A DNA stretch of 22,104 nucleotides from a virus, in the IMG/VR virus record IMGVR_UViG_3300042878_001483, positions 1-22,104 of that record; one strand, given 5' to 3'. Each line of letters begins with the position of its first letter. The first letter of the stretch is position 1. This document shows, one piece after another, positions 2,834-15,063 of this stretch. The notes beneath the pieces were generated by a model. It saw nothing but the letters and a program-made list of their open reading frames with translations, was not told the DNA's origin and did no database searches. Made by a program: the position numbers and the translations under genes.

Positions 2834-4468
2834 TTATTGTATTAAAGCCAAAGCTTCTTCAGTTGTTAATTCTCGTGATGATGGAGCCGATACTTGTTGT
2901 AAAGGCGTCATCATTTGCTCTTGAGGCAATCCATATCCAGATAAAGCTGGTGCTAATGCGCTACTGCGTAAGACTGTGCTTGGAATACCAGTAATCAATC
3001 CACCTTGCCCGCCAACACCTGCCAAAGCCTGACTTAATCGACTTAATCCACGACCAGCTAATTGTTGACCTTTAGGGGTGGCTAATAATCGCAAGCCCAT
3101 TGCACCAGCAGCACCGGCTTCTGGTTCGCCAAACAATCCTCCTAGAGTAGCGCCTCCAACTAATCCAGCGCCGCCAGTAGTGTAAAGTTGCCGCATGGCA
3201 TTGTTAATAATTGACTCTCCTTCTGTAGCTCTTTTGGTGCGTTCTATGATTGGTTCAACTACAATTAAGTCTTGCTTTTGTTTGTTAAGGTCTTTCACTT
3301 CAGGAGCATATTTTTCTATGTGCTCTTTCATTTCACGATAGAGCGTTCTCCAAAAACCTGGATCTGATTGTGGTGAGTTTTTCCAGTTTTCACCGATAAT
3401 TTTCTTTTGTGTGTTCAGATAGGTAAGTTGACCTTTGCCTTCTCGCTTTAAAGCATCTGAATATCGCTCTAATTGAGAGAGGTATCTGTCTACGTCATCA
3501 GCAGCTACACGTTCAGATATATATTTCAATGTCTTATCAAAGGAGGGATTTGATATAGCTTTTGTGCGTTTTTGTAAGACAGATTGAATCTGATTTTCAA
3601 TTCCCTCTTTAGCGTCTTGCAAACGGCCATACATCACATTGGGGTCAAGCGAATTGCCGAGAGTTTTATTTTCTATTACTTGATTCAAAGATTTTTGAAC
3701 TTGAGTTTGAAAATCACCTTGAACGCTTTCAATAATACTGTTCCTAGCTGTTTTTGTATAATCAGATTTACGAGCACCCAGTGCTGTTCTTACTAAGGCT
3801 TCACCTGTCCTCTTTGTTAAAGGAGCTGCTGCTCTTGCCCCAGCGCCAATTACTGGAAGCAATCCGGCAACTCCTCCTCCAATGCCACCACTTAATGTGG
3901 CTAGACTGGCAATATCTTCTGCTGGAACTTCAACGCTTAAAGCGGGAGCTGCACTTAAAGCCGCTGAAACAGGCACAGCTCTTGCCAATGCCGGAACTAA
4001 TGCTTGCCCTCGCTGAACAAGTGCTGCTTTTGGTATTGGAGCTTTCAAGGCGCCAGCTAATTCTACAATTGGTGCGCCACCAATAAGTGGTACAGACTCA
4101 GGAACAACATAACCTTGTTCAGTCTGTGCCGCACGACCAAGAGCTTTTAGTTCTGCTAACTTAGCTCTTTCTTGTTCAAAACTTGTAGCTGAAGGTTGTC
4201 CTGTATATAGACTTGCAAGGTCTGAGAAAATAGCAGATCCGCCAGCAGCTACATTTCCTGTTAGTCCGTAGGTGAGAGCATCAGCAAGACTTAATAGTCC
4301 ACCTGCCCCAACGGCAGCAGCTCTACGATATGGAGAACTTACATCCAGTAAACTAGGTTCATAACTGGGTTGTAAAGATGAGGTTGAAACCATTGAAGTG
4401 CTTGAAAGATTTGGAGAACCTTCTAACAAACGCAATGCTTCTTCGGTTGTAAGTTCTTTATCAGCCAT
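2834..4468 (-). CDS. Putative internal virion/ejection protein with the same motif at both ends
   Basis: 544 aa. Small-residue-rich hydrophobic stretches at about residues 50-90 and 195-215 (GGIGGGVAGLLPVIGAG) could become membrane-active. They are followed by a long charged helical region (about 220-430, with QTQVQKSLNQVIE and ERYSDALKREGKGQ) and a second Gly/Ala-rich stretch. This layout matches proteins that podoviruses eject with their DNA, but I see no lysozyme or transglycosylase motif. The motif ELTTEEAL occurs at residues 5-12 and again at 533-540, four residues from the C-terminus. The gene lies between another ejection-type gene and the fibre. The RBS is weak, so translation may be coupled to the gene just upstream. 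Structural role fairly likely; exact job unknown. Confidence 0.72.
   Translation of the reverse strand: MADKELTTEEALRLLEGSPNLSSTSMVSTSSLQPSYEPSLLDVSSPYRRAAAVGAGGLLSLADALTYGLTGNVAAGGSAIFSDLASLYTGQPSATSFEQERAKLAELKALGRAAQTEQGYVVPESVPLIGGAPIVELAGALKAPIPKAALVQRGQALVPALARAVPVSAALSAAPALSVEVPAEDIASLATLSGGIGGGVAGLLPVIGAGARAAAPLTKRTGEALVRTALGARKSDYTKTARNSIIESVQGDFQTQVQKSLNQVIENKTLGNSLDPNVMYGRLQDAKEGIENQIQSVLQKRTKAISNPSFDKTLKYISERVAADDVDRYLSQLERYSDALKREGKGQLTYLNTQKKIIGENWKNSPQSDPGFWRTLYREMKEHIEKYAPEVKDLNKQKQDLIVVEPIIERTKRATEGESIINNAMRQLYTTGGAGLVGGATLGGLFGEPEAGAAGAMGLRLLATPKGQQLAGRGLSRLSQALAGVGGQGGLITGIPSTVLRSSALAPALSGYGLPQEQMMTPLQQVSAPSSRELTTEEALALIQ
2837..2872 (-). repeat. C-terminal copy of the ELTTEEAL motif
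   Basis: Encodes ELTTEEALALIQ, the last 12 residues of the 544-aa protein. It matches the copy at its N-terminus, and the underlying DNA is also alike (gcttcttc-gttgt). Confidence 0.8.
4424..4456 (-). repeat. N-terminal copy of the ELTTEEAL motif
   Basis: Encodes ELTTEEALRLL, residues 5-15 of the same protein. Eight residues in a row are identical to the C-terminal copy. Confidence 0.8.
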
Positions 4469-11740: not shown

Positions 11741-11762
11741 TCATAGCTCCTATAAAGGTAAA

Positions 11763-11777
11763 TAGGCTAAATGCCTA
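11763..11777 (-). terminator. Weak hairpin followed by T-rich sequence between the 105-aa and 237-aa genes
   Basis: TAGGC-ATTTA-GCCTA makes a 5-bp stem, read on the minus strand, followed by TTTACCTTTAT and then the next RBS (AGGAG). The placement mirrors the two stronger terminators upstream, but the stem is short and there is no unbroken T run. This lies in the only intergenic gap of about 50 bases. Confidence 0.25.
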
Positions 11778-11792
11778 AATAACTTTATATCA

Positions 11793-12110
11793 CTAACCTT
11801 CGATGACAGTAACAGTGTTAATTGGACTGCCTGAAGTCTGATAGGCCGTTACAATCCCAGAAGGGACAAATCCTTCTGTAAATCGCAATATGTTTGAGCC
11901 AGCAGTGCTTGGCAGTACATAACATTTATTGGTTGTAGTCGGCACAATACCAGTTAAGGTTTGCCCTTCAATTCCAATAGCTATGTTAGCTGCTGAATTG
12001 TTTTGAATAATCAACAACTTACGAAATGGCTTTGCAGTTAAAATAGTTACGCTAGTTGCTGTCGCCATTGTAGGCGTAGTGGTTGTTGGATTGCCGCCGT
12101 ATGCTGTCAT
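11793..12110 (-). CDS. Small beta-rich probable capsid or head-surface protein
   Basis: 105 aa. A Thr-rich N-terminus (GGNPTTTTPTMATATSV) is followed by alternating hydrophobic strands (KLLIIQNNSAANIAIGIEG, NILRFTEGFVPSGIVTAYQ), consistent with a small beta-sandwich such as a decoration or fibre-base protein. RBS AGGTGA immediately precedes the ATG and lies directly behind the terminator at 12119-12144. Its location after the major capsid and decoration-type genes supports a head role. I do not recognise a named family. Confidence 0.65.
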   Translation of the reverse strand: MTAYGGNPTTTTPTMATATSVTILTAKPFRKLLIIQNNSAANIAIGIEGQTLTGIVPTTTNKCYVLPSTAGSNILRFTEGFVPSGIVTAYQTSGSPINTVTVIEG

Positions 12111-12118
12111 AGATCACC

Positions 12119-12144
12119 TAAAAAATTGGGGGCTTTTCACCCCC
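12119..12144 (-). terminator. Intrinsic terminator after the 107-aa gene
   Basis: On the minus strand GGGGG-TGAAAAG-CCCCC is followed by AATTTTTT: a 5-bp all-GC stem and a T run. The T run leads straight into the AGGTGA ribosome binding site of the 105-aa gene, so read-through is needed for everything downstream unless another promoter exists. Confidence 0.75.
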
Positions 12145-12151
12145 ATCGAAG

Positions 12152-12475
12152 CTATGTAGCTTTTGTGAACTTGAGATAGAAGTAAGAAGTGCCATTCGAT
12201 ACTACTACAAAGCAGTTAGTATCAGCATCAGCATCTTTTACAACACCTACAAAACCAGCACCAACTGTAGCAGGAGCACCGAACGAAGTCGTAAGCTCTG
12301 CTGCTGTTGGTGTAGTATCACCTACGTTGTTGATTGCTTGCTTGGTACGAATACCAGCAGCAGTAGCAACTACCTGTCCGGTAGGTGTTACGGTGCCACT
12401 GAAAACGCCATCAGCAGTTGCCGAAGCAAGCTCTGCTGGCATACCAAGTCCAATCAATGTGGTTGCGCTTGCCAT
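12152..12475 (-). CDS. Small Ala/Thr-rich probable capsid accessory protein
   Basis: 107 aa. It begins MASATTLIGLGMPAELASAT, a pattern of phage structural genes with short helical starts, then shows beta-prone segments (FVGVVKDADADTNCFVVVSN, SYFYLKFTKAT). It lies between the decoration-like protein and another small beta-rich protein, in the capsid section of the operon. RBS AGGAGAATTT lies before the ATG and directly follows the T run of the upstream terminator. A surface or minor head protein is likely; no family name can be given. Confidence 0.65.
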   Translation of the reverse strand: MASATTLIGLGMPAELASATADGVFSGTVTPTGQVVATAAGIRTKQAINNVGDTTPTAAELTTSFGAPATVGAGFVGVVKDADADTNCFVVVSNGTSYFYLKFTKAT

Positions 12476-12485
12476 AAATTCTCCT

Positions 12486-12511
12486 AAAAAAGAGGGGTTT
12501 TTACACCCCCC
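12486..12511 (-). terminator. Intrinsic terminator after the decoration-like gene
   Basis: On the minus strand GGGG(GG)-TGTAAAAA-CCCC is followed by TCTTTTTT: a GC stem of at least four pairs and a T run, then AGGAG of the next gene. Almost the same sequence occurs at 12119-12144. Confidence 0.75.
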
Positions 12512-12518
12512 TTAATTC

Positions 12519-13007
12519 TTAGTTCACCTTAAGGTGCGCTACAGAGCCAAGCTCTACAGCAGCCGCGCCAGTGGTGGCCGCAAGTCCAACAACATAAGCA
12601 ATCTTAGTTGTTGAAGCATCGTCAGCTACGCCAGCAGTTGCAGTTGTATTAAGGTTAGCCTTGGCAACATAGCTTGCAGCAAGTTTGCCCTTGATTCCCT
12701 TTCCAACTCCACCGCCGTTGAGTCCACCGACCCATACCCATCCGTACTCGTTGTCAGCGAAAGCTATTTGAGCTACGCCAACAAGAAGTCCTTGTGAGCC
12801 AGCGTTCGTAGTAGTGAGCATAGCGGCTTGGCCGTCTTGCTCAATTTTTACGAAGCCATACTGGTCAATAGCACCATCAGCCTGAACAAACACAAATTCA
12901 CCCTCTGGCATACTTCCAACGGCACGAAGCTGTGCTGGAAGAGAGAGATTATCCGTGGTTGTAAAGGTTTTTAAATAATTAACTCCAAACGATCCACTCT
13001 GTGACAT
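12519..13007 (-). CDS. Probable head decoration protein
   Basis: 162 aa. It directly follows the major capsid gene with a strong GGAGG RBS, as decoration proteins usually do. The N-terminus (SGSFGVNYLKTFTTTDNL) leads into beta-rich sequence with Gly/Ala turns (EGEFVFVQADGAIDQYGFVK, YGWVWVGGLNGGGVGKG) and ends in a Val/Ala-rich strand. Such all-beta proteins stabilise capsid lattices from outside. It is followed by an intrinsic terminator, which suggests the gene lies at the end of a highly expressed segment with the capsid gene. Likely but not proven. Confidence 0.72.
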   Translation of the reverse strand: MSQSGSFGVNYLKTFTTTDNLSLPAQLRAVGSMPEGEFVFVQADGAIDQYGFVKIEQDGQAAMLTTTNAGSQGLLVGVAQIAFADNEYGWVWVGGLNGGGVGKGIKGKLAASYVAKANLNTTATAGVADDASTTKIAYVVGLAATTGAAAVELGSVAHLKVN

Positions 13008-13025: not shown

Positions 13026-13982
13026 TTAAGCGTAAATAACAGCCTGAAGTGCAGGAGCAGCGCAACAGAGGTTTCCTTCAACGATAATAACCGTGAAGAA
13101 AGCATCTTGATCCACTGGGCGAGCCATTTCAGGAGCCAAAGGCTTGAAATCTGCGCCTCGAACTAAATCCATCGACCAGTACTTCGTATTAAGAAGTCGG
13201 CATGAATTAGTCTCAAGCACTGAAGAACCGTATCCACCGTCGAATACGAAATCGCATCCGTCGTACTGAAGCACACGGAATCCAGCTACAGCTTTCTTGG
13301 TAGGAAGCTGAATACGCTGAATAGCGGTGAGAGAGCTGTGGAGGTACTTCCAAGCAACACGATCCATGACTCCAAGGTCAGGCTGTTCATCGCCACGAGT
13401 AACTTGCGAAATCGCGTCGGTGATAGTCTCTTGAACGTTAGAAGCAGAGAGGGTTGTATTTACTGCAAGGTTGCGTGCCCAAGCATTTGATACGCGATCA
13501 ATGGTTCCGTAGGTTCCGCTCGATGGAGATGTAGAAATTGCTTTCTTCAAACCATCAAACTCAAGTCCGCTGCTTCCTGTTCCATCGCCACGAAGGGATG
13601 TAGAAACTGTGTTCTTGAGACGAGCTACAGCAGCCTTAATCTTGCTTTCTGCAAGGTCAAGGAGAGCTGCTTCGTCACGGTTAGCACGTCGATCACGTCC
13701 AGAGATTGCTACAGGCTCATAGCACTGCTTGATAGCAAATCGGAACGCCGTAAGGTCGTCGATTGCAGCAAGGTTAAACGAATCAAATCCAGCGTAGAAA
13801 CCACCCTGAGCTGCATCATTGTACATGATGGGCTTGCGGAGTTCATATCCACCAGAAAATTTACGAATGAGACCCTGATCGTCAAGAGATGCAAGAACTG
13901 GGTTGTGATGAAGAACTTCATCAGCAATAGCATCCGACTGATCGAAAAGGGTCGCTACGATTGCCTCTTCCAAATTAGCCAT
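13026..13982 (-). CDS. Major capsid protein (HK97-like fold expected)
   Basis: 318 aa. It begins MANLEEAIVATLFDQSD and has the middle and C-terminal pattern of this class of podovirus capsid proteins: YELRKPIMYNDAAQGGFYAG, ISGRDRRANRDEAALLDLAE, RGDGTGSSGLEFDGLKKAI, MDRVAWKYLHSSLTAIQRI, and a C-terminal strand (FFTVIIVEGNLCCAAP). The helix SKIKAAVARLKNT could be the spine helix. The position after a scaffold-like gene and before a decoration-like gene is the standard order. RBS AGAGGAT lies about eight bases before the ATG. No protease gene was seen near it; scaffold-guided assembly is expected. Confidence 0.87.
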   Translation of the reverse strand: MANLEEAIVATLFDQSDAIADEVLHHNPVLASLDDQGLIRKFSGGYELRKPIMYNDAAQGGFYAGFDSFNLAAIDDLTAFRFAIKQCYEPVAISGRDRRANRDEAALLDLAESKIKAAVARLKNTVSTSLRGDGTGSSGLEFDGLKKAISTSPSSGTYGTIDRVSNAWARNLAVNTTLSASNVQETITDAISQVTRGDEQPDLGVMDRVAWKYLHSSLTAIQRIQLPTKKAVAGFRVLQYDGCDFVFDGGYGSSVLETNSCRLLNTKYWSMDLVRGADFKPLAPEMARPVDQDAFFTVIIVEGNLCCAAPALQAVIYA

Positions 13983-14031
13983 TTTAATTATCCTCTAAAG
14001 TTTAGTGGACAACCTAGTAGCTATGATTTGA

Positions 14032-15063
14032 CTAATCGCCAGTCATGCGCCGCCGCAGGTTATCCCGAATATCTTTCGTTACTACCCTGGGGGTTCCGCT
14101 GCCAGCAGAGCCAGATATTGATCTAGCAGCTTGCTTTGCCCTTTGCGTGGCTTGCATTTGCTGCTGTATGACCGGTTTCGCCTGAAGTTTTTGATTCAGG
14201 TTGGCAAATACCGGATTACCATTCACCACATAATTATAGGCAGTTTCTAGGATCTCCTCTTGGGAGCTATATCTGCCTGTTTGGGTTAAAGCTCGTACCA
14301 CGGGGGCCATCTCACCTTCCAGTTGGGAAGCTGTTTCTGGGTCGCGGAACAAAGGCTTCTGGTTCATGAAAGATTCTACAATCTTTTGATTCATGTACTC
14401 AACTGCCTTTTTTTCCTGCTCAGCATGTAGGGACTGCCAACGTTCGTCTGCAATTCGCTCTGCATCAGCACGAGTAAGATAGTCTTGTTCTACGCTATGA
14501 GCTTCTGTTTGGTTTTCTCCAATAAGTTCTTCAGGAGAAATGCCGTAGGATTCAAGCCATTCACGGGCTGTGGCATGAGGGCTATTCTTCATTGCTCGAT
14601 CCCAAACAACGGAGCGTTTAGCTACATCCTGTATTGAGATACCCTCTTTAGCGTAGTCTTCCTCGTATTGTTTAATGGTGTTGTAAACTGTCGAGTTGCG
14701 CTCGATTAACTGATTAAGCTCTTGAGCCTTACGGTCATACTGAGTCCGAGTTTCGTGAGCACGTCGATTAAGGTAGCCTTGAAGGACATGGGAATTCTGA
14801 GACGTCGGACTAAGAAAAGCCTCTTTCTCAGCCTTGTTCATATCAGCCGGAGGAGCATAAACAATTTGCTCAGACTGTGCCGCTGGTGCAGAAGTTTTAA
14901 CCTCGAAATCCTCTTCCTTGGTTTCTTCAACTGCTTCTGTCTTACTTACTTCATCATTTTGACTATGAAGTTGTTTACGCAATGAATGACGAATTTGTAA
15001 GTCAGTTTCATTTCGATCTGGCGTTACATCTTCAGGAGTTACTTCGGTTACATTATCTTCCAT
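14032..15063 (-). CDS. Scaffold-like protein
   Basis: 343 aa, strongly charged and predicted helical. It has an acidic, disordered N-terminus (NVTEVTPEDVTPDRNE, AVEETKEEDFEVK), then a long Gln/Glu/Lys-rich helical middle (RTQYDRKAQELNQLIERNS, QYEEDYAKEGISIQDVAKR) and a basic C-terminus (RRRMTGD) that could touch the inner capsid wall. This composition and the position immediately before the major capsid gene fit internal scaffolding proteins, which guide procapsid assembly and leave or are degraded. It overlaps the upstream 108-aa gene by 11 bases. RBS AGGT is present. The role is by position and composition. Confidence 0.75.
   Translation of the reverse strand: MEDNVTEVTPEDVTPDRNETDLQIRHSLRKQLHSQNDEVSKTEAVEETKEEDFEVKTSAPAAQSEQIVYAPPADMNKAEKEAFLSPTSQNSHVLQGYLNRRAHETRTQYDRKAQELNQLIERNSTVYNTIKQYEEDYAKEGISIQDVAKRSVVWDRAMKNSPHATAREWLESYGISPEELIGENQTEAHSVEQDYLTRADAERIADERWQSLHAEQEKKAVEYMNQKIVESFMNQKPLFRDPETASQLEGEMAPVVRALTQTGRYSSQEEILETAYNYVVNGNPVFANLNQKLQAKPVIQQQMQATQRAKQAARSISGSAGSGTPRVVTKDIRDNLRRRMTGD

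Follow-up and report, generated by a model that had tools for sequence, protein, structure and literature searches.

Conserved twin hairpins behind the capsid genes of a viral genome fragment are probable partial intrinsic terminators

Behind the capsid genes of the IMG/VR virus record IMGVR_UViG_3300042878_001483, two gaps between neighboring genes each carry a hairpin with a U-tract that leads into the ribosome-binding site (RBS) of the next gene, and in related viruses hairpins are kept at the same two joints with stems that have changed in sequence while remaining paired. We conclude, with a probability of about 75%, that both hairpins are intrinsic terminators that would act only partially and would thereby generate stepped mRNA levels behind the capsid genes. 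The device as such is of an ordinary kind, namely post-capsid intrinsic termination, but its twin arrangement is unusual and it is well conserved. The record is a fragment, and the whole stretch of 22,104 bases that was analysed is referred to below as the window.

The capsid region is encoded on the minus strand, where the genes follow each other in the order terminase (phrog_2), portal (phrog_12082), a 343-aa gene that was labelled 'scaffold' by its position only, the major capsid protein (MCP) gene (phrog_9953), the 162-aa, 107-aa, 105-aa and 237-aa genes, and a tail gene matching phrog_6013 (Table 1). For the 162-aa protein, an AlphaFold2 model with a pLDDT of 85 was used in Foldseek searches, and the best matches were to proteins of Haloferax tailed virus 1, the Sf11 capsid, the TW1 stabilising protein, Pam3 and the phi29 head fibre. 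All of these are capsid-associated, at E values of 1e-3 to 1e-2 (none below 1e-3) and TM scores of about 0.5, while phrog_29386 was matched weakly by 2 of the 24 members of the group to which the 162-aa protein belongs. The predicted fold is therefore, within the weakness of these E and TM values, like that of capsid decoration or stabilising proteins. The model of the 107-aa protein reached a pLDDT of 62 and gave no confident fold match. In relatives, the places of the 107-aa and 105-aa genes were seen to be occupied by several alternative genes, such as one of 134 aa, or one of 85 aa together with one of about 251 aa. When named phages were searched by DNA none was similar, and by protein 13 were found, with MCPs less than 60% identical. 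A search of bacterial genomes with the MCP returned no relatives and consequently no host.

Table 1. Positions of the features of the capsid region within the window
Feature	Position	Strand	Basis or description
MCP gene	13026..13982	-	phrog_9953 major head protein, E 5e-63
162-aa gene for a capsid decoration-type protein, preceding hairpin 1	12519..13007	-	predicted structure and Foldseek
107-aa gene between hairpins 1 and 2	12152..12475	-	no PHROG or Pfam match
105-aa gene following hairpin 2	11793..12110	-	ORF
Hairpin 1, gap after decoration-type gene: AAGGGGGGTGTAAAAACCCCTCTT	12490..12513	-	stem of 9 bp whose outer pairs include A-U and G-U; GTAAAA loop
T6 tract and AGGAG Shine-Dalgarno of 107-aa gene	12481..12491	-	sequence
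Hairpin 2, gap after 107-aa gene: TGGGGGTGAAAAGCCCCCA	12127..12145	-	7-bp stem, GAAAA loop
T6 tract and AGGTG Shine-Dalgarno of 105-aa gene	12115..12125	-	sequence
Third hairpin before 237-aa gene, AT-rich, conserved	11763..11777	-	z -3.6 with flanks; no U-tract
TGCTATAAG-like element by stop of 105-aa gene (TGATATAAAG at 11783-11792), then AT-rich hairpin	11741-11792	-	conserved
Three leader segments before MCP gene (GGATAACC, GGTTGTCC, GGATAATT)	14058-14065, 14007-14014, 13986-13993	-	pattern

An earlier note on this DNA had described twin modules of hairpin, T run and RBS behind the capsid genes, and both were indeed found within a few bases of the positions it gave. The two hairpins have the anatomy of intrinsic terminators: each possesses a GC-rich stem of at least 5 pairs with a loop of 3-8 nucleotides, and at both sites the stem is directly followed by a T6 tract. 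Hairpin 1 folds at -15.5 kcal/mol (z -2.0) and hairpin 2 at -13.3 kcal/mol (z -1.6), as judged against shuffles that keep the dinucleotides. Several coding stretches of the window fold as strongly as this, and a generic terminator scan of the window yielded 18 sites against 16.3 ± 3.9 expected, which is the chance level. Rfam returned no match at the gathering cut-off in the window and nine relatives, and only weak sub-threshold matches at a loose threshold. Taken by themselves in the window, the two hairpins are not beyond chance; it is their conservation in relatives that rules out a chance origin and makes them real.

Relatives were collected via the MCP, taking 80 of 214 found, then 80 more of which two were already included, plus 80 more distant ones. 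The de-duplicated set comprised 205 loci, 132 of which had an MCP at least 70% identical to that of the window. At site 1, behind the decoration-type gene, a hairpin was present in all 123 relatives with a callable gap, and at site 2, behind the 107-aa place, a hairpin at least as stable as -9 kcal/mol was present in 100 of 101 callable gaps; 9 and 31 of the 132 loci, respectively, were left out at the two sites for want of a callable gene or gap. The search of related genomes proposed in the earlier note thus showed the hairpins to be present in close relatives. Near-identical loci are still in this set, and the distinct hairpin-plus-tail sequences amounted to 68 at site 1 and 62 at site 2. 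Between relatives the stems vary in both arms, with pairing kept, and 122 of the 130 distinct hairpins from the two gaps have a G-rich 5′ arm and a C-rich 3′ arm. Counted from the final G/C position of the stem, the next eight nucleotides included at least five T in 49 of 73 distinct cases at site 1 and in 65 of 70 at site 2, and a cruder count of T tails gave 41/68 and 58/62. Per 10 nucleotides, the tails contained 4.9 T at site 1 and 6.0 at site 2, and the heads 5.0 and 4.0 A. Such an asymmetry, A-rich upstream and T-rich downstream, is a mark of intrinsic terminators. Across 85 loci, the two gaps contained 125 terminator-like sites (53 and 72); elsewhere, in 743 kb, the sense strand had 463 such sites and the opposite strand 612. 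Shuffled gaps, in which the runs of G and C are kept, reached -9 kcal/mol in 66-73% of cases, and the mean z of the real gaps was only about -2. Together, the conserved hairpins with their paired stems and T-rich tails support the presence of conserved intrinsic terminators at both joints.

The arrangement also extends beyond the close relatives. In a distant group with MCPs about 27-34% identical to that of the window, counted over loci with a gap of at least 25 after the first gene behind the MCP gene, 54 of 57 had a hairpin after that gene, 43 with a U-tract; one member (L185) carries a hairpin nearly identical to hairpin 1 of the window. In ppBjS10J-1 and Mwe-JY13, two of four named phages examined, the first gene downstream of the MCP gene is followed by a strong hairpin. 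Of the other two, BUCT555 has a hairpin with no clear T tract behind its MCP gene, and Mx8 has no hairpin of that form. Furthermore, a locus without both small genes (L079) has retained the decoration-gene hairpin.

The likeness of the two modules had been attributed in the earlier note to duplication or strong selection. Selection is borne out by the retention of the hairpins in 123/123 and 100/101 gaps, by their T tails (49/73 and 65/70) and by compensatory changes in a bulged class of hairpins described below, while duplication is not. A recent duplication of one hairpin-RBS module is, in our estimation, highly improbable. The hairpin pair of the window does score 0.68, with only 4 of 64 other site-2 hairpins matching hairpin 1 better, and the two hairpins of one genome shared the same loop class in 20 of 65 distinct pairs compared with 13.0 ± 2.8 after permutation, a slight excess in a count that ignores kinship. 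However, the loop classes at the two sites of the window differ, and in the loci nearest by MCP (L003-L007, 97-99.7% identical) hairpin 2 is almost unchanged while hairpin 1 is unrelated and bulged. On these grounds, a tandem duplicate module with recent shared ancestry was rejected. The likeness of the site-1 hairpins tracked the downstream gene weakly (partial r 0.19), and that of the site-2 hairpins tracked the gene upstream of them, which is the middle one (partial r 0.52). This hints at a middle gene that moves together with the hairpins on either side.

As we envisage it, RNA polymerase would cross the scaffold, MCP and decoration genes and stop in part at hairpin 1, with a second partial stop at hairpin 2. 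Much mRNA would then be made for the capsid and decoration proteins and less for the 107-aa and 105-aa genes, which, to judge by the gene anatomy, should rely on read-through. As each U-tract runs straight into the next RBS, the read-through transcripts could be translated at once. By analogy with the stop signal at the capsid gene of T7, the hairpins would probably set the output of each later gene. Promoter-like matches between positions 4000 and 22104 of the window numbered 24 against 31.3 expected, and a single candidate element was found, before the 237-aa gene.

Conceivably, the hairpins could mainly shield capsid mRNAs, whether processed or terminated, from exonucleases at the 3′ end, with termination being secondary. 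This would fit the observation that the site-1 hairpin is always kept even though 24 of its 73 distinct versions have a weak U-tract (9 of 12 with the 134-aa gene type), and it would fit the recurrence of the very stable loop types GNRA and UUCG. Nonetheless, 65 of the 70 site-2 hairpins are followed by a U-tract, and the A-rich 5′ and T-rich 3′ flanks are as in terminators, so that we consider a mainly protective role possible but doubtful. Intrinsic terminators also protect 3′ ends, and the two roles are compatible. The short and fixed distance between hairpin and Shine-Dalgarno sequence, in gaps of about 40-51 nt, could alternatively point to a role in translation, in which the hairpins keep the next RBS free and uncoupled from the upstream gene. 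This appears unlikely to us, since it leaves the U-tract unexplained; the hairpin before the 237-aa gene has no U-tract, which argues that translation alone would not need one.

We regard it as equally unlikely that late transcription is antiterminated and ignores the hairpins, which would then merely block stray host-type transcription. Antitermination of the Q type is known in phages (PMC6606751), and the fragment that makes up the record has no known regulators. Yet the position of the hairpins is tied to the capsid genes and not to operon ends, and the other gene joints in the window are mostly closed or overlapping. Partial intrinsic termination remains the reading that we prefer. Stems of 7-9 pairs seem too short for an RNase III site.

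A weaker hairpin before the 237-aa gene had been described in the earlier note as having the same placement. The hairpin does exist and folds well, but neither the window nor the P105-type relatives have a U-tract after it, and it is not of the same kind; as a terminator it was rejected. It precedes the Shine-Dalgarno sequence of the 237-aa gene, and in 25 sequences it has six consensus pairs, four of them with double changes. Ahead of it, TAGTGCTATAAG over the stop codon is common to most P105-type relatives. A TGNTATAAT-like (extended -10) match of at least 7/8 was detected in 26 of 40 P105-type upstream regions, which are homologous there, against 3.1 expected from shuffles, whereas 4 of 35 regions in which another gene precedes had such a match against 3.1 expected. 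Since the match is limited to the P105-type group, the promoter before the 237-aa gene is only a candidate. The L079 locus kept TGCTATAAG before its 237-aa gene. Where the 105-aa gene is present, the TGCTATAAG element behind it may, as a candidate, restart transcription for the tail genes; with the AT-rich hairpin that follows, it is a candidate promoter or leader.

Upstream of the MCP gene, three segments reading GGAYAAC, GTTRTCC and GGAYAAC were present in 95 of the 126 relatives with enough upstream DNA. The first GGAYAAC lies at the end of the preceding gene, the second holds or touches the MCP Shine-Dalgarno sequence, and the middle GTTRTCC can pair with either of them. In these 95 loci, the variable pair of the first helix was T-A in 50, C-G in 29, T-G in 13 and C-A in none, with a G mismatch in the remaining 3, and that of the second helix was A-T in 51, G-T in 23, G-C in 21 and A-C in none; the pattern used to find the segments restricts the letters but still permits wrong combinations, and kinship is ignored in these counts. 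For these segments in the window, the minimum-energy fold contains the helix that would hide the RBS. The pattern suggests that the MCP leader forms two competing helices, one of which hides the Shine-Dalgarno sequence, and it may serve autogenous or coupling control.

A distinct hairpin form, consisting of a stem, a bulged G, two pairs and an NGUAY loop (with a different base in place of the A in a few), was present in 29 of 68 distinct site-1 and 14 of 62 distinct site-2 hairpins of the relatives, and absent from the two hairpins of the window and from the near-identical L002. In 47 distinct 22-mers, all eight pairs had changed on both sides, with 82 double-change cells versus 18.8 in shuffles; that 376 of 376 paired cells pair is built in, as pairing was the criterion of collection, and it is the double changes that are informative. 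Loci fetched by the MCP alone (237) contained 52 distinct NGTAY contexts on the sense strand, with G as the bulge in 52/52, and none on the opposite strand. When all viral contigs were scanned, the bulged form was found in 64 stretches, compared with 2 for a form with the bulge removed and 0 for one with the loop permuted. With the inner pairs swapped to CC/GG, 13 stretches were found, 11 of them complementary at the free position. ViennaRNA predicts the bulge-less form to be more stable (-14.3 vs -10.5), indicating that the bulge is kept at a cost.

The same form was encountered in 25 records without similarity to the capsid-region proteins of the window or to two other capsid proteins. Every one of them was complementary at the free position and 21 had a U-tract, some of the records being near copies. 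In seven of them the hairpin follows an MCP gene of another type, as assigned by PHROG (L298 and L292) or by similarity of the gene, or of its end, in translation (L290, L297, L302, L311 and L320). The bulged hairpin was located at 5520-5541 of L298, and in L292, L302, L110 and further viral contigs it was likewise seen downstream of genes of unrelated phages, for capsid proteins as well as for others. A version with a GGGAG stem occurred in 43 viral stretches and in none of the genome_contigs collection, and the bulged form is also contained in a stretch of a B. cenocepacia replicon, which by our reading of its ORFs includes phage-like genes. A literature search by hairpin letter strings gave unrelated subjects among the matches listed and no name for the form, and we know of no name for the bulged-G/NGUAY hairpin. 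Its recurrence at such sites in relatives and unrelated phages is new here. Tentatively, these hairpins might represent a phage-wide class that is selected for its specific tip, is recognised by a protein or RNA polymerase, and tunes termination or protects the ends of capsid mRNAs in unrelated phages. Combined with the MCP leader they might form an RNA-controlled device for capsid dosage, for which the window would have substitute GNRA-like tips at the corresponding places. We offer this as a conjecture to which we give the lesser credence.

Phages require hundreds of copies of their capsid proteins and few of the proteins encoded next. That the terminator pair is kept at the same joints despite sequence turnover suggests lasting selection on post-capsid dosage in phages other than the T7 group. 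With its recurrence, the bulged hairpin offers a testable lead to a possible RNA-recognition event in phages, as well as a compact part for graded termination; it and the capsid leader are what a specialist would pursue.

The closest known counterpart is the terminator Tphi of T7. According to PMC5592923, this single leaky terminator lies right after capsid gene 10, and genes 11 and 12 are expressed only via read-through. The putative terminators of the window similarly separate a capsid gene from other late genes that follow it on that strand. However, unlike T7, which has one terminator and its own polymerase, the window has two in tandem flanking a small gene, and the first of these is placed one gene further down, behind the decoration gene. 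For the T7-like Pseudomonas phage LUZ100, the sections of PMC10134795 that we cite report an apparent strong terminator behind the MCP gene and describe no twin terminator as in the window. An annotated terminator of Burkholderia phage JC1 (OM283127.1, 13228-13272) carries a bulged GGCTCGTACAGC hairpin and a T run, as in the relatives, but it is not at a capsid gene, and the window is without the bulged form. With intrinsic (Rho-independent) terminators in general, the two hairpins share the GC stem, the short loop and the U-tract, whereas their fusion to the next RBS and the strong G bias of the 5′ arm set them apart.
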